39,083 bases of DNA from Patescibacteria group bacterium. GTDB taxonomy: Bacteria > Patescibacteriota > Minisyncoccia > JAHIHE01 > JAGLIN01. The stretch covers positions 1 to 39,083 of the forward strand of contig JARGGI010000009.1 of assembly GCA_029210775.1 (NCBI GenBank). Direction: 5' to 3'. Within the stretch, counting starts at the first letter, position 1; each line of letters starts with the position of its first letter. The notes beneath the pieces are model-generated. The model did not search any database, was not told the DNA's origin, and saw nothing but the letters and a program-made list of their open reading frames with translations. The position numbers and the translations under genes are program-made. Positions 545-39,007 of the stretch are shown here, in pieces.

Positions 545-994
545 TCAAAGCTCGAAGAGTTTTAACTGCTTGGCGTCTTCTTTTCTGCCTTGCTTCTCTA
601 TGTATTTCTCAATGACTGCTTTGTTGCCTCTGCCACTTACTGTCGCGAAGTAATATCCATCTGTCCAAAATTCTCCATTCCACAGTTCTCATTTGATTTC
701 TGGAGCTTGTTTGAATATTCTTCTGCTGGTTATGCTTTTTATCAGCCTGATCACTTGCCCGCCTGAATATTCGGGAAGAAATTTGCAGAGCAAATGAATG
801 TAATTCTTGTCGAATCCTATGTGATAAATTTCAATAGCGTATCTTTCTTTGAATCCTTTGAGGGTTTTAAGGATTATCTTTTCTAATTTATCGTTGAATA
901 ACGATTTTCTGTATTTTATAGTTAATTGTATGTGATAATATGGTTCTGACACATTGTGATACCAATACCACATATCGTTTTCTATATTAGTCAT
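545..994 (-). pseudogene. IS200/IS605-like (REP-associated, Y1 HUH) transposase, interrupted by an in-frame TGA
   Basis: ORF 689..994 ends at TGA (689-691), but the same frame continues as ELWNGEFWTDGYYFATVSGRGNKAVIEKYIEKQGRKEDAKQLKLFEL* to 545, which is the conserved C-terminus of this family. Confidence 0.8.
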
Positions 995-1733: not shown

Positions 1734-3029
1734 TTATTTTAACCTATTTTTTAATGCTGTTCTTGCAATTTCACGATCATCCCATGGAATTTTTTTCTCG
1801 CCACAAATTATAAATTGCTCAGCACCTTTACCAGTTACAATAACCAAATCACCTTCCCTCGCCATTTCAACTGCTTTGTTTATGGCCTCTTTTCTATCCG
1901 ATATTCTGAACAAATTTTCATTAATCTTTTTATTTTTAATACCTAAAAGAACTTGATCAATAATTTTTTCTGGATTTTCGCTATATGGATCTTCGTTAGT
2001 TATAATGACTACATTGGCATATTCCTCGGCCAAGGCTCCCATTTTAGCTCTATAAGACTTATCTCTATCCCCCGTACCTCCCAAAACTGCAATCATTCTA
2101 TTTTTTATATAAGGCTTTACGGCTTTATAAACACTTTCAAGTGAATCTGGCGAATGAGCATAATCAACAATAACTTCAAAATTCTGTCCCTCATCAATCT
2201 TTTCCAATCTTCCTGGAATATCTCTAATTGATTCCAACGCCTTTTTAATTGCAATAGGTTTTATATTCTCTGCAAGCCCCACGGCAGTAGCTGCTAATGA
2301 ATTATAAATATTAAACTCTCCAATAAGTGACATTTCTATGGTCATTTGCCCTTTATCAGTTTTAATGTTAAATTCAGTTTTTGCTTCAGTTAAATTAATA
2401 TCCACTGCCCTAATTAATTTTGCATCATTAATTTGCTTATATCCTTTCAGACTAAAAACATATTTTTTAATTCCTTTGAAATCTAAAAAGCTTCTCAAAT
2501 TCTCATCATCATAGTTTATAATTATATTTTCCAAATTTTTCGTTATTAGGGCATTATGAGAATTCTTATAATTTTCATAAGTCTTGTGATAGTCCAAATG
2601 ATCACTCATCATATTTGTCAAAACAATCGTTTTATAAGAAACACCCCAATGCCGATATTGAACAAGTCCATGAGAAGAAATTTCCACAATTACATAATCA
2701 CATTTTTCCTTCACAGCTCTTTTGATAAATTTTTGAAAATAAAATGGAGATGTTGTTGTCAGTTTTACATCGTTAAGCCATTTCTTATCACCAATTTGAA
2801 AATTTGCCGTAGAGAGCATTGCCACTTTATACCCACCTTCCTCAAGAACTTTAGCAATTAAGTTTGTAGTTGTTGTCTTTCCTTTTGTTCCAGCAACTCC
2901 TATAACCCTGATTTTTCTTTGCGGAGAACTATATAAAGCAACAGCCAAAACAGCTCTAACCTTGTGAGTGAACAAAATGAAATTATAAGGAACAATTTTT
3001 CTCAAGACTTGTTTAATTTTGTATATCAT
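1734..3029 (-). CDS. Mur ligase family protein (MurE-like / UDP-N-acetylmuramyl-tripeptide synthetase-like)
   Basis: GVAGTKGKTTTT P-loop, VEISSHGL, TNMMSDHLDYHKTYENY, DYAHSPDSLE, LGGTGDRD and VTGKGAEQ motifs of Mur ligases. Confidence 0.85.
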   Translation of the reverse strand: MIYKIKQVLRKIVPYNFILFTHKVRAVLAVALYSSPQRKIRVIGVAGTKGKTTTTNLIAKVLEEGGYKVAMLSTANFQIGDKKWLNDVKLTTTSPFYFQKFIKRAVKEKCDYVIVEISSHGLVQYRHWGVSYKTIVLTNMMSDHLDYHKTYENYKNSHNALITKNLENIIINYDDENLRSFLDFKGIKKYVFSLKGYKQINDAKLIRAVDINLTEAKTEFNIKTDKGQMTIEMSLIGEFNIYNSLAATAVGLAENIKPIAIKKALESIRDIPGRLEKIDEGQNFEVIVDYAHSPDSLESVYKAVKPYIKNRMIAVLGGTGDRDKSYRAKMGALAEEYANVVIITNEDPYSENPEKIIDQVLLGIKNKKINENLFRISDRKEAINKAVEMAREGDLVIVTGKGAEQFIICGEKKIPWDDREIARTALKNRLK

Positions 3030-5695
3030 ACTTTTTTTTGAGATAAAAATAAATATTTAATAATTTCAATAATAACAATTTCCGTTACAAATATAAATAT
3101 CATTAAAGACCAATCATAAATATCTAGTGAAACCGTCTTTAATATATTTTGAAAGAAAGGATGATATATGGCAAACATCTGAAAAATAAAAGCGGCTATG
3201 ACAGCTCCGATTAAATATTTATTTGAAAATACATTCTTTTGAAAAATTGAATGTCTCAAAGATCTAACTGAAAAAACATAGACAAGCGAATCAATTGCTA
3301 AAATTGAAAAAGTTATGGTATTCGCTCGAGCAAAATCACCCGTTACACTAAAGACATACCAAAAGACCGCTAACGACAAAAGACCGCTTAAAATACTTAT
3401 TGAAATTATTAATGTTTTAATTTCAATGTTTAAGAGAGGTTCATTGGTTTTGCGCGGAGGTTCTTTCATAATATTTTCTTCTTTTGGTTCTAAGGTCAAA
3501 GCTGCATCAGGAAGACCGTCTGTAACAAGATTGATCCAAAGAATTTGAACAGCGGTCAAAGGAAGGGAAATTTCTTTGGGAAGAAAAATAATAGCCCCCA
3601 TAATCACGATAACTTCACTAAAACTATCTGAAACTAGATAGACAATAACTTTTCTAATATTTTCATATATAACTCGCCCCTGTTCAACGGCAGTTATTAT
3701 GGTTTTTAAATTATTATCTAAGAGTATGATATCCGCAGTCCCCTTGGCAACCTCTGTTCCGCTTCCAAGGGCAATTCCAATGTCAGACGATTTAAGAGCT
3801 GGCGCATCATTCACTCCATCTCCAGTCATCGCCACAACCTCGCCTCTGCTTTGCAAAGCATCAACTATTCTCAATTTATGATGAGGAGAAACGCGAGCAT
3901 AAACTTTTATTTTATCAACAATACTATTTAACTCTTTTGTACTCATTTGATCTAACTGGTGACCATCTAAAATATTATTATCTTCAACTCTCATTCCAAG
4001 TTCATTTCCAATAGTTTTTGCCGTTATGCGATTATCTCCAGTTATCATCACAATTCCAACCCCAGCTTCTCTTGCAAGCTCTATAGTTTTCTTTGCTTCC
4101 AATCTAATTGGATCCTTAATTGCTATCAATCCCACAAAAACAAGGTTATTTACCAATTCATCGTCGTTTTCTTCTTTAAATTTAGAAGAGACATCTTTAT
4201 TTAAATCTCGATAGGCAACACTTATAATTCTAAGACCTTTTTTACTTAATTCGTTTTGCTTTTTTTTGAGATTACGAAGATCATCTTCTGTCATTTTTCT
4301 TTTTTTCCCATCAATTAATACATATTTTGATCTATTAATTATTTCTTCTGGAGCTCCTTTTACATATATTTTATAATCGCCAGATTTGTCTTGGTTCAAG
4401 GTTGCCATAAACTTTCTTTCAGAAGTAAATGGTATCTCTCCTAAGCGTTTATGATCTCTATTAATATCTTGAAAATTAAAACCTGCATTCAATCCTGATT
4501 GCAATAAAGCTCTTTCTGTATAATCTCCATGTATTCTCCAATCTTTTAACTCGTCGTCTGGATTTTCGATTTTTGCATTATTACATATCATTCCAATCGA
4601 AATCACTTTCATATGATCAATTCCACATTTCTCATTCTTTGTTGATGAATATATAGAGCATCTAGTTATAATGTGATCAACTTGCATTTTTCCTTCAGTA
4701 AGCGTTCCCGTTTTGTCTGTGCAAATTATGGTGGTACTTCCAAGTGTTTCAGCTGCAACAAGTTTTCTAACTAAAGAACCTTTTTTTAATATTCTTTGCA
4801 TTCCAATTGCCAAAACCACCGTCACGGCCACTAATAAACCTTCGGGAATTGCCGCTACTGCAACAGCGATAGCAATTATAAATATTTCTTCAAAAGGAAT
4901 TCCCCTAAACAATCCTATCAGCAAAATAATAACGACTATCAAAAAAGTTAATATTCCAAATGTTTTACTAAAGCTTGCCAATTGTTTCTGAAGAGGCGTG
5001 TCTTCTTCTTCTGTTTCTTTTAAGAGTTGAGCTATTTGACCAAATTTTGTCTCAATTCCAGTTGAAGTTACAATCATCATTCCCCTGCCTCTAGAAATGA
5101 CTGTTCCCATATATGCCAAATTATCCTTGCTTTTTCCAAATCCTTGTTTATCTTGAACATCTGAAATTTTACTCACAGGAACCGATTCTCCAGTTAAACT
5201 TGACTCATCAACATCAAATTCATGAGCTTCTATAATTCTACCATCAGCAGGAATTCGATCTCCCGCTCTCAACACAACAATGTCTCCAATAACAATATTT
5301 TCGGAATCTATTTCTTTTTCAATTCCATCCCGAATCACATCGGATTTATGCTGAATCATTTCCTTCAATTTTGCCAGTGAATTTTCAGCCTTCAATTCTT
5401 GAACAAACCCCACAATTGTATTAAGAAAAACTGCGAAAAGAATAACACTTGCATCAACCATCTCACCTAAAATAAACGAAACCAATGCAGCCACCAAAAG
5501 AATATATACTAAAGGACTTTTAAATTGATTAAGAAAAATTGTTATTGCTGTAAATTTCTTTTTTGTTGGAAGAATATTTTTTCCATATTTTTTCAATCTC
5601 CTTTCTGCTTTATCAAAAGACAACCCATCATGAGATGATTTTAAATTATGTAAAACTTCTTTTACACTCATATTATTCCAATTTTCTTGTTTCAT
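3026..5695 (-). CDS. Cation-translocating P-type ATPase (P2A/Ca2+-type-like)
   Basis: TGES, DKTGTLTEGKM, IPEGLLVAVTVVLA, MTGDGVNDAPALK, NLVTDGLPDAAL motifs; full length 889 aa. Confidence 0.92.
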   Translation of the reverse strand: MKQENWNNMSVKEVLHNLKSSHDGLSFDKAERRLKKYGKNILPTKKKFTAITIFLNQFKSPLVYILLVAALVSFILGEMVDASVILFAVFLNTIVGFVQELKAENSLAKLKEMIQHKSDVIRDGIEKEIDSENIVIGDIVVLRAGDRIPADGRIIEAHEFDVDESSLTGESVPVSKISDVQDKQGFGKSKDNLAYMGTVISRGRGMMIVTSTGIETKFGQIAQLLKETEEEDTPLQKQLASFSKTFGILTFLIVVIILLIGLFRGIPFEEIFIIAIAVAVAAIPEGLLVAVTVVLAIGMQRILKKGSLVRKLVAAETLGSTTIICTDKTGTLTEGKMQVDHIITRCSIYSSTKNEKCGIDHMKVISIGMICNNAKIENPDDELKDWRIHGDYTERALLQSGLNAGFNFQDINRDHKRLGEIPFTSERKFMATLNQDKSGDYKIYVKGAPEEIINRSKYVLIDGKKRKMTEDDLRNLKKKQNELSKKGLRIISVAYRDLNKDVSSKFKEENDDELVNNLVFVGLIAIKDPIRLEAKKTIELAREAGVGIVMITGDNRITAKTIGNELGMRVEDNNILDGHQLDQMSTKELNSIVDKIKVYARVSPHHKLRIVDALQSRGEVVAMTGDGVNDAPALKSSDIGIALGSGTEVAKGTADIILLDNNLKTIITAVEQGRVIYENIRKVIVYLVSDSFSEVIVIMGAIIFLPKEISLPLTAVQILWINLVTDGLPDAALTLEPKEENIMKEPPRKTNEPLLNIEIKTLIISISILSGLLSLAVFWYVFSVTGDFARANTITFSILAIDSLVYVFSVRSLRHSIFQKNVFSNKYLIGAVIAAFIFQMFAIYHPFFQNILKTVSLDIYDWSLMIFIFVTEIVIIEIIKYLFLSQKKV

Positions 5696-15272: not shown

Positions 15273-16493
15273 TTATTTATTTCTCAATGTTCGTAACTTC
15301 CTGTGATAGAAAATTGCAAATCGATGTGCTTCGTCACGCAATTTTTTTATAAATTCAACATCAGGAAAAATATAGCCCCTACAAGATGAATAAAATAACT
15401 TTTCGCCCTTCCTATCTGGTCCTTTTGCAATTGCAACCACAGGAATATTTAAATTATACTTTTTTAAAACCATTTGAGCAACATTTTTTTGTCCCAAGCC
15501 TCCATCAATTATTATTAAATCTGGCTTTTCCCATTCCGCATGAGAAAATCTCCTTTCAATGACCTCTTTAATCATTCCTATGTCATTTGCGTCTTCAATT
15601 GTTTTTATTTTAAATTTTCTATATTCATTCTTATTTGGTTTTCCAAAAGAAAATACAACCATGCTTCCAACAGCAAATTTTCCAGATATATTTGAAATAT
15701 CATAAGCCTCAGCACGAACAGGATATTTTTCATATTTATTTTTCAAAATCTCATCTTTTCTAATAAAAGCGACATCTTGAATATGGTTTAATAAAAATAA
15801 CTGATTTCTTTTTATTGTTGCGCTTTCATAATTCATTTCTTTTGAATGTTCCACCATCTCCTTTTCAATTTTTTTTATCAAATTTTTCTTTTTCCCTTGT
15901 AAAAATAATTTTATATTATTTATAATTTTTTGATAATCTTTTTTGGACATATTTTCTACTTTTCCTGATGAATAACCTTTTATATAGTATTTTCTATATA
16001 GATTTAAAGTGTTATTTTTTTGACTATTATCACGATCGAATATATTTACCAAAATCCCAATTACTTTTTCAGCTTCCCATTTACTAAAATATGGACCAAA
16101 AATATATTTTGCTTTTATTTTCTTTTTATCAGTTGGTCTTGTGATTAAAACTTGTGGATATTCTTCATTAGTGATAATTATATTCACAAAAGATTTATCA
16201 TCTTTTAGTTTGATATTATATTTCGGAGCATATTTATTGATAAGATTTGCTTCTAAAATCAAAGCTTCCACAACATTGTCAGTTTCCTTATAATCAATTT
16301 TATCTATGTCTTCAACTAGAGTTGCAGTCTTATTGTCAAGTGCGCCCGTAAAATATGAACCAACTCTATTTTTAAGTGATGTTGCTTTTCCAATATATAT
16401 AATTTTCCCTAATTTATTTTTCATCAAATAGACCCCAGGTGAATCTGGAAATTCTTTAACTTTCTGTTTTATATCGTTTTTATAATCTTGCAT
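15273..16493 (-). CDS. uvrC: UvrC-like excinuclease subunit lacking the C-terminal HhH region
   Basis: GIY-YIG domain (PDSPGVYLMKNKLGKIIYIGKATSLKNRVGSYF), UVR motif, AYDISNISGK, PDLIIIDGGLGQ, RDEAHRFAIFYHRKLR; protein ends there at 406 aa. Confidence 0.88.
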   Translation of the reverse strand: MQDYKNDIKQKVKEFPDSPGVYLMKNKLGKIIYIGKATSLKNRVGSYFTGALDNKTATLVEDIDKIDYKETDNVVEALILEANLINKYAPKYNIKLKDDKSFVNIIITNEEYPQVLITRPTDKKKIKAKYIFGPYFSKWEAEKVIGILVNIFDRDNSQKNNTLNLYRKYYIKGYSSGKVENMSKKDYQKIINNIKLFLQGKKKNLIKKIEKEMVEHSKEMNYESATIKRNQLFLLNHIQDVAFIRKDEILKNKYEKYPVRAEAYDISNISGKFAVGSMVVFSFGKPNKNEYRKFKIKTIEDANDIGMIKEVIERRFSHAEWEKPDLIIIDGGLGQKNVAQMVLKKYNLNIPVVAIAKGPDRKGEKLFYSSCRGYIFPDVEFIKKLRDEAHRFAIFYHRKLRTLRNK

Positions 16494-16576: not shown

Positions 16577-16882
16577 TTAACAAACATCTTCCATTCTAAT
16601 TGCCTTTACGGGACATTCGATGTCGCATATTCCACAACCTTTGCAATAGTCCATATTAGTTTCTCCAACTTCAATCTTTTCTTTTCCATCTTCAAGTTTG
16701 ATTTTTTTAACTTCAATTGCCATATCAGGACAATATACAGCACATCGCATACAATTTATACACCTGTTATTATCACGAATTGGCATCTTTGCTTTCCAAC
16801 TTCCAGTTTTGAATTCTTTTGAGTTTCCTGCTTCAATTATTTTCCCACCAATGGGAATTTGTTTTGCAGTTTTTAATTTCAT
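16577..16882 (-). CDS. porD: Pyruvate/2-oxoacid:ferredoxin oxidoreductase delta subunit (2x4Fe-4S)
   Basis: CINCMRCAVYCPDMAI and CKGCGICDIECPVKAI; GSWKAKMP N-terminus. Confidence 0.88.
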   Translation of the reverse strand: MKLKTAKQIPIGGKIIEAGNSKEFKTGSWKAKMPIRDNNRCINCMRCAVYCPDMAIEVKKIKLEDGKEKIEVGETNMDYCKGCGICDIECPVKAIRMEDVC

Positions 16883-16920
16883 AGTAATAGTAGATTATTT
16901 TAGTAATTTAATATTCAGAA

Positions 16921-17252
16921 TTAGAAAAAGTGATTTTTACATTTGGCTTTATTTGTAAAATTCTTTGAATTATTTTTACAAATCCAGGATAATTGATTAT
17001 TCGAAATATTTTCTTTCTTAGTTGAAAAAAGAAGAAAGGTAACAACTTTTATAATCTCAATATTGTTTATATTGATTACAGTGTTTCTAAATAAATATTT
17101 ATCGATGATTTTATTGTTTTTACATTCTATCTTATTGAAATAAATGCCAACTATAACTAAAAATAGGGGTGCTAAAAAAATATAAAATATTCTAGTAAAT
17201 AATAAAATTATTAATATTACAAATAAACTATTTAATTTGTCCTAATAATCAT
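16921..17252 (-). pseudogene. Uncalled, possibly frameshifted ORF encoding a TM-anchored small protein
   Basis: Minus frame open from stop at 17242-17244 to TAA at 16921-16923 (DKLNSLFVILIILLFTRIFYIFLAPLFLVIVGIYFNKIECKNNKIIDKYLFRNTVININNIEIIKVVTFLLFSTKKENISNNQLSWICKNNSKNFTNKAKCKNHFF*). No ATG/GTG/TTG in frame; an ATG in another frame sits at 17250-17252. Confidence 0.35.
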
Positions 17253-17295
17253 TTTAAATATTAAAAATTAATTATAAATTATAAACTACATTGTT

Positions 17296-17318
17296 GATTC
17301 AAGTTTCCGACTTGAATC
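17296..17318. terminator. Perfect 9-bp stem hairpin between porG and the uncalled ORF
   Basis: GATTCAAGT-ttccg-ACTTGAATC followed on the plus strand by TTATTATATTTTTT; transcriptional orientation uncertain. Confidence 0.45.
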
Positions 17319-17430
17319 TTATTATATTTTTTAATCTATACAAATAATACCATTTCCTTCATTTATACCTTCAATAATTGTATTGTTCATAAGTTTTTTT
17401 ATTTTAATAGCTTAATTAATCTGAAATTTA

Positions 17431-18009
17431 TCATTTGACATTTGAAATTGTCTCATATCCTTCCTTCAACGCCTCAACATTTTTTCTTACTAAATCATCA
17501 TTTAAATGTTTGTGTTCAAACATTTCTTCTGTTTCTTCAATCCCATGTTCGTAGGGAATTAACGGAACAAGTTTTATAATCGCACCCATAATAGCGGTAT
17601 TCGGCAAATTTCTGCCGATAATTCTCATCGCAATCCCCTTGGCATCAATGGTGTAAATTTTACTATCTTTCTTTTTTAATTTCTTTTTTATTTCTTCAAC
17701 AAAATCGCAAGTGTTAACTAAAACAATACCGTTATCAACCAACCCCTCTGTCACATCAACGTTTAGAAGCAAAGAAGGATCTAAAACAACTACCATGTTG
17801 GGATTTTCGATTTGACTGTGAATCCTAATTTCTTTTTTGCTAATTCGTAAAAATGTTTTCATTGGCGCACCAGATCTTTCTGGACCATATTCTGAAAAAG
17901 CTTGGGCAAACTTTCCTTCTTCAATTGAAGCCTCAGCAATAATTTGTGCTGCGGTTTTTGCTCCCTGCCCGCCACGCGAATGAATTCTGATTTGATATAT
18001 ATTTTCCAT
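17431..18009 (-). CDS. porG: Pyruvate/2-oxoacid:ferredoxin oxidoreductase gamma subunit
   Basis: IRIHSRGGQGAKTAAQIIAEA; FSEYGPERSGAPMKTFLRIS; NTAIMGAIIKL. Confidence 0.92.
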   Translation of the reverse strand: MENIYQIRIHSRGGQGAKTAAQIIAEASIEEGKFAQAFSEYGPERSGAPMKTFLRISKKEIRIHSQIENPNMVVVLDPSLLLNVDVTEGLVDNGIVLVNTCDFVEEIKKKLKKKDSKIYTIDAKGIAMRIIGRNLPNTAIMGAIIKLVPLIPYEHGIEETEEMFEHKHLNDDLVRKNVEALKEGYETISNVK

Positions 18010-19137: not shown

Positions 19138-21189
19138 CTACACTTCAATCCGAATATCAACAGCAAAGCATTCTTTCTCGGTCACTATCAGAGGATTAAT
19201 GTCTAATTCTTTGATTTCCTCGTGCTCTGAAACGAGATTTGATATCCCAACTAAAGCATCGGCGATTGAATCTATGTTCATTTTTGGCAAATTTCTATAA
19301 CCATCTAAAGCTGGAAATAATTTTATCTCCTTAATCATTTTCATTGCTTCGTTTTTATCAATTGGTGCAAATCGAAAAGAAACATCTTTCGTAATTTCTG
19401 TAAAAATTCCTCCGAAACCAAACATTATCAAATGCCCAAAATTTTCATCTTTTTTCACTCCCAAGATTATTTCTGATCCTTTAATCATTGGCTGAATTAT
19501 TATTCCGTCTAATTTATCTCCGAGATTTTGACTGGCTTGCTCAAAATATTCCTTAACCTCGCCGTCATTTTTTACATTAATTTTTACTCCACCCACTTCA
19601 GTCTTATGGGAAATCTTGCTTGATGCGATTTTCAAGACAACAGGATATCCAACTTCATTGGCAAGTTCTATAGCTTCTGAATAACTCTTTGATAGGAGAG
19701 ATAGCACTATCGGAATTTTATATGATTTTAATAAGTCAAGAGACTGAATAAAATCTAATTTTTTATCAATCTCAATCTTTTCGTGAATTTGATTATTTTC
19801 ATTATTATTTAACATTTTTAAATAGTTCGTAGCATCTTTTTTTGCTTTTTTATATTGCCAAAGTTTTCCAAGCGAAAAAGACGCTTGCGATGGATAGTTA
19901 TAAAAAGCCAAAGAGCTTTTATTGAGCATTCTGGTTTCATTTTCAATTGAAACTCCTCCAATAAAACTTGCCAGAATCGGCTTTGAATTTTTCTTTGAAA
20001 ATTTCACGAGAGCATCGGCTGTCTTTTTGATTTCAGTAGTTTTCTGTGGAGTTAAAATAGAAATTATTCCTCCAACATTCTTGTCAGCCAACAACGCTTT
20101 AATCGCAATTTCATACCTGTCAGATTTAGCATCACCGACAACATCAACCGGATTATGAATGTTTGCTTCCATTGGTAAATACTTTTCAAGAATATTTATT
20201 GTTTTCTCTTTAAAAACTGCCATTTTCAAACCATTCTCTTCCACCTCGTCAGTGGAAATCACTCCCGGACCGCCGGCATTCGTGATAATAGCAACTTTAT
20301 CACTATCCAAGCTATCATAGCGAGAAAGAAATTTTGCGATATTAAATAGTTCTTCTAGATTATTTATGCGAAGAACGCCAGATTGAGAAAATGCAACCTT
20401 AACTACTTCCTCCTTGTTGGCAAGTGCTCCTGTATGAGATTTCATCGCTTCACACGATGCCTTACTGGTTCCCGGTTTTATAATAAAAAGCGGTTTTATC
20501 TTCGCCAGCTCCGCCGCGACCTTCATAAATTCTTTTCCTCGTTCAATACTTTCCAAATAAGCCAAAACTGCTTTTGTTTTTTTGTCAGTCTTGAAAAATT
20601 CCAGCAATTCAATCTCGGAAATCATTGCCTTATTTCCCATACTTACAAACCTTGAAAATCCTACATTGTTCAAATTTGCCCAATCAAGCATTCCCGTACA
20701 TATTGCTCCGGATTGAGAAATAAATCCGATTGACCCTTTTTGAACCATGCCCTCCGCGAACGATGCGTTTAAATCGCTTGTTGAATCTAAAATTCCCAAA
20801 CAATTAGGCCCAAGAATGTTAATCTCATATCTTTTTGCGACTTTCTTCATTTCTTGTTCAAGAATTTCCCCTTCTTTTCCTATTTCTTTAAATCCAGCGC
20901 TTATAATGATGACATTTTTAATTTTTGCCATCCCGCATTCAGCCAAAACGAAATTAACCGCTCGCGCAGGTATAACAATAACAGCTAAATCAATTTTTTG
21001 TTTTATATCCAAAACACTTGAATAAGCCTTCATTCCCTGAACTTTATCATATTTCAAATTCACAGCATAAACTTTCCCTTTATAACCATAATCAAGAATA
21101 TTCCTCAGCATCCCATAGCCCAGCTTTTTCTTATTAGACGATGCGCCAATTACAGCGATTGATTTTGGATTAAAAAAATTATGTAGCAT
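19138..21189 (-). CDS. acd: ADP-forming acetate--CoA ligase (acetyl/acyl-CoA synthetase), fused alpha-beta
   Basis: FFNPKSIAVIGASSNKKKLGYGMLRNI; GPNCLGILD; ISQSGAICTGMLDW; KSHTGALA; C-terminal ATP-grasp (YPVVLKIASSKISHKTEVGGVKINV; DINPLIV). Confidence 0.93.
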   Translation of the reverse strand: MLHNFFNPKSIAVIGASSNKKKLGYGMLRNILDYGYKGKVYAVNLKYDKVQGMKAYSSVLDIKQKIDLAVIVIPARAVNFVLAECGMAKIKNVIIISAGFKEIGKEGEILEQEMKKVAKRYEINILGPNCLGILDSTSDLNASFAEGMVQKGSIGFISQSGAICTGMLDWANLNNVGFSRFVSMGNKAMISEIELLEFFKTDKKTKAVLAYLESIERGKEFMKVAAELAKIKPLFIIKPGTSKASCEAMKSHTGALANKEEVVKVAFSQSGVLRINNLEELFNIAKFLSRYDSLDSDKVAIITNAGGPGVISTDEVEENGLKMAVFKEKTINILEKYLPMEANIHNPVDVVGDAKSDRYEIAIKALLADKNVGGIISILTPQKTTEIKKTADALVKFSKKNSKPILASFIGGVSIENETRMLNKSSLAFYNYPSQASFSLGKLWQYKKAKKDATNYLKMLNNNENNQIHEKIEIDKKLDFIQSLDLLKSYKIPIVLSLLSKSYSEAIELANEVGYPVVLKIASSKISHKTEVGGVKINVKNDGEVKEYFEQASQNLGDKLDGIIIQPMIKGSEIILGVKKDENFGHLIMFGFGGIFTEITKDVSFRFAPIDKNEAMKMIKEIKLFPALDGYRNLPKMNIDSIADALVGISNLVSEHEEIKELDINPLIVTEKECFAVDIRIEV

Positions 21190-36372: not shown

Positions 36373-37347
36373 ATGAATGATAAACAGCTCCAAAATTTTA
36401 TTTCCTATCTGATAAAAAACAATCATAATGTATATAGTCACAGAGAAATCGGAGATGAAATTACTATTAAAAAGATAGAAACTGGAAAAGATTTCTATCT
36501 TTGCCCCAAAAGACCACTATTCTCATTCAAAAAATTGTTTCTACCACCTTGTCAAAAAATGATGGTCTTTAAAAATAATATTACAACTCTTAATAAAAGC
36601 CAGAATATAAAAATTGTTTTATTAGGACTTCATTTTTATGATATGAAAGCCCTCACTTTAATCAATCGAGTCTATAGAAAAGATCCGCATTTTCAAAAGA
36701 AACTTAGAAATGCAATAATAATTGGGCAAAGTCCAGTTCCTGCAGAAATGGAAGATTACCAAAAATTTGAAAAAGAAGTTTTGGAACATCTTAAGTTTGA
36801 TATCTTCTTAGAAGCAAAATCTCATGGAGCACAAGAATCTTTCAGAATCTTTACGGGCTCAGAAGATGGGCAAAGACTTCTTGATGATTTTGGATATAAA
36901 GATTATGAAAACATTGAATATGTCGGCCCTGTTCCTAAAAAAGGACTCGGACCAGTTAATTCAATGTTAATTGAAAAAGTTAGAAAATCTCGAGGTAGTA
37001 AAATTTGGAAAGAATTAGACAAAAAATGCATTAACTGCGGAAAATGTTCAATCGTATGCCCAACTTGTTTTTGTTTTAAAATCAAAGATGAAATCAAAAA
37101 AGATGAGATTCTGCGAACTCGAGAATGGGACAGCTGTTTTTATGAAGAATTTTCAGAGATTGCTGGCGGACACAAGTTTTTAGATACTACCGAAAAAAGA
37201 ATTTATAATTGGTATGATCATAAATTTGTCAGAATACCAGAAGAATATACAATGCCTGGCTGTGTTTCGTGTGGAAGATGCACAGAAGTTTGTCCGGCAG
37301 GAATTGATATCAGAAAAAATTTAAAAAGAATCATTGAAGAGAATTAA
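36373..37347 (+). CDS. hydB: Group 3b-type [NiFe] (sulf)hydrogenase beta subunit, 4Fe-4S protein
   Basis: CINCGKCSIVCPTCFCF and CVSCGRCTEVCPAGIDI ferredoxin motifs; immediately followed by gamma and delta subunit genes. Confidence 0.85.
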   Translation: MNDKQLQNFISYLIKNNHNVYSHREIGDEITIKKIETGKDFYLCPKRPLFSFKKLFLPPCQKMMVFKNNITTLNKSQNIKIVLLGLHFYDMKALTLINRVYRKDPHFQKKLRNAIIIGQSPVPAEMEDYQKFEKEVLEHLKFDIFLEAKSHGAQESFRIFTGSEDGQRLLDDFGYKDYENIEYVGPVPKKGLGPVNSMLIEKVRKSRGSKIWKELDKKCINCGKCSIVCPTCFCFKIKDEIKKDEILRTREWDSCFYEEFSEIAGGHKFLDTTEKRIYNWYDHKFVRIPEEYTMPGCVSCGRCTEVCPAGIDIRKNLKRIIEEN

Positions 37348-37372
37348 ATACTACTGAATATAAAAAATCATT

Positions 37373-38194
37373 ATGAAAAATCCATACGGTCCAATTCAAG
37401 CTAAAATTGTAAATATTGAAGAATTATCTCCAATTAACAAACTTTTTACGCTTCAAATTAAAGACAATCAAATTAGAAATACATTTAAGTTTAAACATGG
37501 ACAGTTTTTTATTCTGTCAGTTCCGGGATTCGGCGAAGCTCCTTTTGGTTTTTGCTCAAGCCCGACAATCAAAGAAACATTTCAAGTATCTGTTGATAAG
37601 CGAGGAAGTCTAACTTCAAAACTTTTTGAATTAAAAAAAGGATGTGAAGTTGGCATTAGAGGTCCTTATGGAAATGGTTTTGATCAGAAGAAAATCAAGA
37701 ATAAAAATTTGATTTTAGTGGCTGGTGGTTGTGGACTTTCCCCTCTTCGAACAATCATTCAAGACGCAAATCTTCATCCTGAAAAATTCAAAAATATTCA
37801 AATTTTCTATGGATGCAGAAATCCAGAACTTTTAGCGTTTAAAAAAGACTATAATAAATGGAACAAAAATATTGAAATAAATTTGACCGTCGATACGGCT
37901 GATGAAACTTGGAAAAATAATGTTGGTGTCGTAACTGATCTACTCACTTCAGAAAAAATTAAAAAAGATTGTGTCGCAATTCTTGTAGGTCCTCCTGTAA
38001 TGTATAAGTTCGTCATTCAAAAACTGGTTGAACTTGGCTTGAGTGATGAGGACATCTATGTTTCACTGGAACGAAGAATGCATTGTGGGATCGGAATTTG
38101 CCAACACTGCGCACTCGTAAATGGAAATTATGTCTGCACAGATGGTCCCCTATTTTCTTATGCTGAGATTAAAGATACTCCTGAAGGAATTTAA
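37373..38194 (+). CDS. hydG: (Sulf)hydrogenase gamma subunit, FAD/NAD(P)-binding oxidoreductase
   Basis: GQFFILSVPGFGEAPFGFCSSP; LVAGGCGLSPLRTII; C-terminal ERRMHCGIGICQHCALVNGNYVCTDGPLFSY [2Fe-2S] motif. Confidence 0.93.
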   Translation: MKNPYGPIQAKIVNIEELSPINKLFTLQIKDNQIRNTFKFKHGQFFILSVPGFGEAPFGFCSSPTIKETFQVSVDKRGSLTSKLFELKKGCEVGIRGPYGNGFDQKKIKNKNLILVAGGCGLSPLRTIIQDANLHPEKFKNIQIFYGCRNPELLAFKKDYNKWNKNIEINLTVDTADETWKNNVGVVTDLLTSEKIKKDCVAILVGPPVMYKFVIQKLVELGLSDEDIYVSLERRMHCGIGICQHCALVNGNYVCTDGPLFSYAEIKDTPEGI

Positions 38195-38260
38195 ATCATT
38201 GAACTTTGAATTTTTGCTATTACTTTTACATTTTAGTTTTAACTTTTTAGTTATACATTT

Positions 38261-39007
38261 ATGCCAAAACCAAAAGTCGCCATAATAAGCCTTACATGTT
38301 GTGAAGGATGTCAACTCTCAATTTTAGATTTGGGCGAAAAAATTTTAGATATTGCAGATAAATTAGACTTAAGAAATTTTCGTCTTGCCTCGGGAACAAA
38401 AAGTTTTCCCGGTCCCTATGACATCGCCATTGTAGAAGGTTGTCCAATTACCAAAGATAATTTCAAACGCCTCAAAGAAATCAGAAAACAATCCAAAGTT
38501 TTAATTGCCCTGGGATCTTGCGCTCATTTGGGTGGTGTTGCTGAAATCAAAAATTATAAAGGAAACAAGGAAGAACAAATCAAATATGTTTATAAAAATA
38601 TTGAGGGAATCAATAACCCTGACATCACGCCCATTAGTGATGTTGTGAAAGTTGATGGTTTTATCCCAGGATGTCCTATTAACAATGAAGAGTTTTATAG
38701 GATTGTAATGGAATATGCAGAAGGAAAAACTCCATATATTGCTCAAAGACCTGTTTGTTATGAATGTCAGCTCAGAGAAAATAAATGCCTTTTGCAAGAA
38801 GGAAAACCTTGTTTCGGTCCCGTCACCTTGGGAGGATGCGAAGCAATTTGTCCTGCAAACGGTTTCATCTGTGAAGCCTGCCGCGGACCACTCAAAGGAA
38901 CTTCTATTGAAAAATTACAGGAGATTATGAAAGGTAAAATGGATAAAAAAGACCTCATGAAAATCGCGGAGATTTATGGGGTGAAGAAGGAGTTTGAAGA
39001 AAACTAA
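38261..39007 (+). CDS. hydD: (Sulf)hydrogenase delta subunit, [NiFe] hydrogenase small subunit
   Basis: TCCEGCQLSILDLG; IALGSCAHLGGVAEI; DGFIPGCPINNEEF; C-terminal Cys-rich cluster region. Confidence 0.93.
   Translation: MPKPKVAIISLTCCEGCQLSILDLGEKILDIADKLDLRNFRLASGTKSFPGPYDIAIVEGCPITKDNFKRLKEIRKQSKVLIALGSCAHLGGVAEIKNYKGNKEEQIKYVYKNIEGINNPDITPISDVVKVDGFIPGCPINNEEFYRIVMEYAEGKTPYIAQRPVCYECQLRENKCLLQEGKPCFGPVTLGGCEAICPANGFICEACRGPLKGTSIEKLQEIMKGKMDKKDLMKIAEIYGVKKEFEEN

Follow-up and report, generated by a model that had tools for sequence, protein, structure and literature searches.

A MurE-family ligase with histidine at the carbamyl-lysine position in a clade of Patescibacteria

Can a MurE ligase do without the carbamylated lysine of its metal site? 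The question is raised by murE, a gene on a 39,083-nucleotide stretch of DNA (contig JARGGI010000009.1 of assembly GCA_029210775.1; hereafter the window) from a genome of the Patescibacteria, or candidate phyla radiation (CPR). A sequence-only reading of the window had placed a P-loop near residue 47 of the product, taken the usual N-terminal uridine diphosphate (UDP)-binding domain to be missing or minimal, found histidine at the lysine position and NEDPY in place of the DNPR motif, and proposed from these features a different substrate or chemistry. We show that murE is a real, sole-copy and conserved MurE of its genome, that the histidine is fixed in one clade together with a short list of other changes, and that the remaining oddities are traits of the phylum.

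A conserved, single-copy MurE

Read from its ATG start codon, the product clears the MurE model TIGR01085 (408.9 bits, cut-off 257.3), covering positions 58-471 of the 472 in the profile, and it also exceeds the cut-off of a second MurE model, NF001126; against the MurC model it reaches 123.5 bits, far under the cut-off of 335.1. The Mur ligase middle and C-terminal domains (PF08245 and PF02875) are present with their P-loop, active-site glutamate and metal-binding histidine, and PF01225 is absent; the P-loop stands at residues 47-53. The AlphaFold2 model has a predicted local distance difference test score (pLDDT) of 91.1 and a predicted template-modelling score (pTM) of 0.89, and its best solved matches in a fold search are the MurE proteins of Escherichia coli and Staphylococcus aureus, with query-normalised TM-scores of 0.85-0.86. 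In sequence the product stands closest, among solved structures, to MurE proteins and to PAP11, a MurE-like protein of plastids. Canonical MurE (E. coli 1e8c, S. aureus 4c12) shares with the product 28-32% identity, the middle and C-terminal domains, the P-loop, the metal-binding glutamate and histidine and the GDRD and GKGxE motifs, but differs in having a UDP-binding domain, carbamyl-lysine, Thr114, Lys393 and DNPR, where the present protein has no such domain, histidine, alanine, tyrosine and EDPY.

The source genome (G000; 1.17 Mb in 65 contigs, listed as 100% complete) holds five Mur-ligase genes, namely murE, MurC, MurD and two MurF homologues. The sequence-only reading had suggested checking for a second, canonical murE; no second MurE was found in this genome or in its sister genomes. 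Contig C22 carries MurB, MurC, FtsW, MurG and MurD, contig C18 carries mraZ, rsmH, an FtsL-like open reading frame (ORF), FtsI and a short MurF, and two MraY-family proteins are encoded; pathway gene names given without a family call rest on reading of the ORF translations. Membership in MurE follows from whole-protein evidence, that is, TIGR01085, the fold search and the pathway context, and this context is consistent with addition of the third residue to N-acetylmuramic acid (MurNAc)-L-Ala-D-Glu. Genes of the DapA family (PF00701) and the DapF family (TIGR00652) were not found in the source genome despite its peptidoglycan genes; the cell therefore probably imports the third stem residue or produces it by a different route. 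Homologues of murE occur in all 54 relatives and in 236 of the 286 sampled genomes of the phylum (E <= 1e-25). Those close relatives that have names carry the label Candidatus Paceibacterota, Parcubacteria or Patescibacteria.

His158 and the residues that changed with it

When DHLDYHKTYENYKNSHNAL is aligned with E. coli DHLDYHGDMEHYEAAKWLL, which requires no gap, His158 (codon CAT) falls on Lys224, as first noted from the sequence. Across 148 aligned rows (146 homologues plus segments from E. coli and Thermotoga maritima), the carbamyl-lysine column reads lysine in 131, histidine in 16 and asparagine in 1; with 16 genomes carrying the histidine, chance or sequencing error is excluded. All 16 histidine rows belong to families f1, f2 and f3 of the source order, the sole f4 genome (L151) having lysine. 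In a tree of the homologues, the check that the sequence-only reading had suggested and which we built without the carbamyl-lysine column, these rows form a single clade with support of 100 and require a single Lys-to-His change. Identity inside this clade drops to about 52%, so the histidine has persisted while the sequences diverged widely; close members give a ratio of nonsynonymous to synonymous substitution rates (dN/dS) of about 0.05-0.13, an approximate range as many dS values are near saturation. The product is a MurE-family protein under selection.

The accompanying changes are few. Among 36 near-invariant columns (at least 95% conserved among the lysine rows), the histidine clade departs at two, Thr46Ala and Lys158His, each in 16 of 16 rows. 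Position 46 is threonine in 128 of the 130 lysine rows having a residue there, and position 326, tyrosine in the histidine clade, is lysine or arginine in 130 of 131 lysine rows. Glu116, Ser119, His120, Arg126, His144, the P-loop and the GDRD arginine are retained, and since the remaining near-invariant residues are all kept, the change is a focused one and not general decay. This pattern bears on whether the protein might be catalytically inactive, or moonlight as the MurE-like PAP11 of the plastid RNA polymerase does. It has indeed lost a residue reported to be essential in MurE (PMC3060825), and PAP11 is among its closest solved structures by sequence and by fold; yet it is the sole MurE beside an otherwise intact pathway, it is under strong purifying selection and every other near-invariant residue is in place, which leaves loss of activity very improbable.

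A neighbouring lysine might instead be carbamylated, in which case the product would be an ordinary MurE of unchanged chemistry. The segment is rich in lysines (K149, K155 and K166), and carbamylation is invisible in sequence. However, K149 is also common in rows with the canonical lysine, the gap-free helix alignment leaves the other lysines off register, no clade-specific lysine gain was found except a weak one at position 277, and Thr46 has changed too, so that we judge this explanation distinctly improbable.

We consider it likely, on balance, that the product is the active MurE of its cell with a rebuilt, carbamate-free second metal site in which His158 acts as the stand-in. The N-carboxylated lysine of MurE is thought to position Mg-ATP (the magnesium complex of adenosine triphosphate) for acyl-phosphate formation (PMC3829189). 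In the rebuilt enzyme, an ATP-dependent ligase would still add the third stem-peptide residue of peptidoglycan through an acyl-phosphate, with His158 replacing the carbamyl-lysine and Thr46Ala and Lys/Arg326Tyr changed alongside. His158 would bind the second Mg2+ (or a different divalent ion), either by itself or via a water molecule, and the enzyme would therefore no longer depend on a lysine carbamate made from CO2. Precedent for a lysine-free Mur ligase comes from MurC and Mpl, which naturally have no carbamyl-lysine and in which a glutamate compensates for the missing residue (PMC3060825); they differ from the present protein in this extra metal-site glutamate, in an aromatic residue at the lysine position (PMC3060825) and in keeping the N-terminal domain. 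The solved MurC sequences shown have alanine at the Thr46 position, and MurD keeps both threonine and lysine. Loss of the threonine is paired with loss of the lysine in three separate places, namely the histidine clade, MurC and a single sequence unrelated to the clade, L165 (valine). FolC-type ligases are not known to follow this pairing strictly.

Several points weigh against a rebuilt metal site centred on His158. According to Dementin 2001 (as cited in PMC3060825), the carbamyl-lysine is essential to MurD, MurE and MurF alike. MurT and MurC have two acidic residues in common where MurD and MurE have serines (PMC6085368), and the histidine clade retains serine beside the active-site glutamate, where MurC adds an acidic residue; no convincing acidic gain of the MurC kind was found beside its metal site. 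From the sequences, compensation for the lost lysine would thus count as unproven, and a residue other than His158 could be the metal ligand. With serine kept at these positions, the histidine clade uses neither known lysine-free solution, and the rebuilding of its metal site is probably of a kind not previously reported; a literature search for domain loss in CPR MurE or MurF, or for histidine at the carbamyl-lysine position, found nothing, which is not proof that there is none.

A more drastic departure occurs in one genome only (G242), whose sole MurE-like match, L165, has asparagine at the carbamyl-lysine position, valine at the Thr46 position, leucine at the metal-binding His144 and glutamate at His120.

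A short N-terminus shared across the phylum

About 38 residues precede the P-loop strand in the product, with AlphaFold2 predicting helices at residues 2-12 and 15-32; the N-terminus has a net charge of +7, and residues 20-45 are the counterpart of the E. coli inter-domain linker. A late start call hiding an N-terminal domain is ruled out, as just nine open codons lie upstream of the ATG. The UDP-binding domain is likewise absent from nearly all CPR homologues. In nearly all aligned homologues, 31-60 residues precede the P-loop, the clear exceptions being two Anaerolineae sequences, L015 (110 residues) and L033 (143), together with a handful of longer open frames (L140, L169, L159, L105 and L114). 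In the alignment of NEDPY with DNPR, Tyr349 falls on E. coli Arg416, and the product therefore lacks the DNPR motif that marks MurE of the meso-diaminopimelate type. NEDPY or similar is common in lysine-keeping rows, which rules the change out as a clade-specific trait.

Lysine-keeping short MurE proteins of the CPR (for example L083, L085 and L151) share the short N-terminus and, throughout, EDPY, and the closest of them share GDRDK and 41-48% identity, but they retain Lys158, Thr46 and Lys326. Because the missing domain and NEDPY both occur in such proteins, they are phylum traits and no sign of leaving the MurE family, and they are unusable as an argument for new chemistry in the present product. 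The N-terminal UDP-binding domain defines canonical MurE, not the CPR branch, and its loss is separate from the histidine change. The proposal of a different substrate or chemistry therefore divides. Its substrate half gains no support from the short N-terminus and NEDPY, which are ordinary among homologues; the case for altered metal-site chemistry stands on a histidine that is normal only within one clade and fixed there, on the paired Thr46Ala and Lys/Arg326Tyr changes, and on its place in the only MurE of complete genomes.

What the loss of the domain means for the pathway may be approached through MurT of the GatD/MurT complex, also a Mur ligase without the N-terminal domain, which has a 35-residue N-terminus and accepts lipid I and lipid II as substrates but no UDP precursor (PMC6113224, PMC6085368). 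This precedent makes a membrane-level MurE/MurF step possible. MurT differs in making an acyl-phosphate for amidation by GatD and in its Cys4 zinc ribbon; the present product has only two cysteines in 431 residues, and its gene adjoins a P-type ATPase and a transposase fragment, with no glutaminase. By analogy, CPR MurE, this one included, might act at the membrane or use a lipid-linked precursor, MurNAc-dipeptide carried by undecaprenyl pyrophosphate. Such an arrangement, which we hold unlikely, would explain the loss of the UDP-binding domain in both MurE and MurF, with the histidine change as a separate adjustment. It fits the state of MurF: both homologues of the source genome lack the canonical N-terminal domain, one having a long, apparently membrane-spanning region instead, and among the further CPR MurF loci inspected with a readable P-loop, only L171 and L173 have a canonical MurF-like start; the others open with a short basic segment or with a long one unlike that of canonical MurF, in many of them apparently membrane-spanning. 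It also fits the basic N-termini of CPR MurE (mean net charge about +5). No stand-alone UDP-binding domain was found elsewhere in the source genome, where PF01225 matches only MurC and, weakly, MurD. However, the N-terminal helices are no more amphipathic than shuffled sequences, and we dropped them as evidence of membrane binding; furthermore, the middle domain could still bind UDP-MurNAc-dipeptide, the substrate that MurC and MurD make is linked to UDP, and the usual place of MraY is after MurF. Broader, and more doubtful, is the proposition that in most Patescibacteria MurE and MurF, the last two amino-acid ligases, no longer recognise UDP and lengthen the stem peptide on a precursor that is lipid-linked or held at the membrane, the MurE of the source clade having in addition a histidine-based, CO2-independent metal site.

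Taken by locus, MurF at L043 (1042-2820), L045 (1423-2685) and L171-L200 is mostly without the canonical N-terminal domain, the variants either reaching the P-loop after about 28-45 residues or beginning with a long stretch that is apparently membrane-spanning.

Gene neighbourhood and significance

Table 1. Features of murE and its neighbours, in window coordinates.
Feature	Position	Strand	Basis or remark
murE, 431 residues, Mur ligase middle and C-terminal domains only	1734..3029	(-)	TIGR01085; PF08245 and PF02875; AlphaFold2
Residues 1-38, short basic hydrophobic two-helix N-terminus replacing the UDP-binding domain	2916..3029	(-)	Predicted helices, charge
Ala46, first position of the TGTxGKT motif (E. 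coli Thr114)	2892..2894	(-)	Ala in 16/16 His rows
P-loop GTKGKTT, residues 47-53	2871..2891	(-)	
Segment DHLDYHKTYENYKNSHNAL, residues 143-161, metal ligand His144 retained	2547..2603	(-)	
His158 at the carbamyl-lysine position (E. coli Lys224, S. aureus Lys219)	2556..2558	(-)	CAT codon, 2558-2556
Tyr326 in GDRDK[ST]YR (E. coli Lys393)	2052..2054	(-)	Tyr in 15/15 His rows
NEDPY, counterpart of the E. coli DNPR region	1983..1997	(-)	Widespread in Lys-keeping CPR MurE
Cation-transporting P-type ATPase upstream of murE, its end overlapping the murE start by 4 bases	3026..5695	(-)	PF00122, PF00689
Truncated IS200-like (Y1) transposase, 101 residues, adjoining murE	689-994		

Nearly all genomes of the family that were checked have the P-type ATPase next to murE. 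Elsewhere in the window lie a UvrC-like gene (15273-16493) whose product, only 406 residues long, ends early relative to full UvrC; delta- and gamma-like subunits of a 2-oxoacid:ferredoxin oxidoreductase (16577-18009), with alpha and beta not beside them; an acetyl-CoA synthetase-like gene (19138-21189); and, at the window end on the forward strand (36373-39007), three genes resembling the beta, gamma and delta subunits of a cytoplasmic sulfhydrogenase-type NiFe hydrogenase.

The carbamyl-lysine is regarded as necessary to MurD, MurE and MurF, and a selected, histidine-bearing clade of MurE thus offers a natural test of the role of the carbamate, with a short list of co-changed residues available for swapping. 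Furthermore, as CPR MurE and MurF lack the canonical N-terminal domain and MurC and MurD keep an N-terminal region, it becomes testable where, and in what order, these bacteria assemble the stem peptide.
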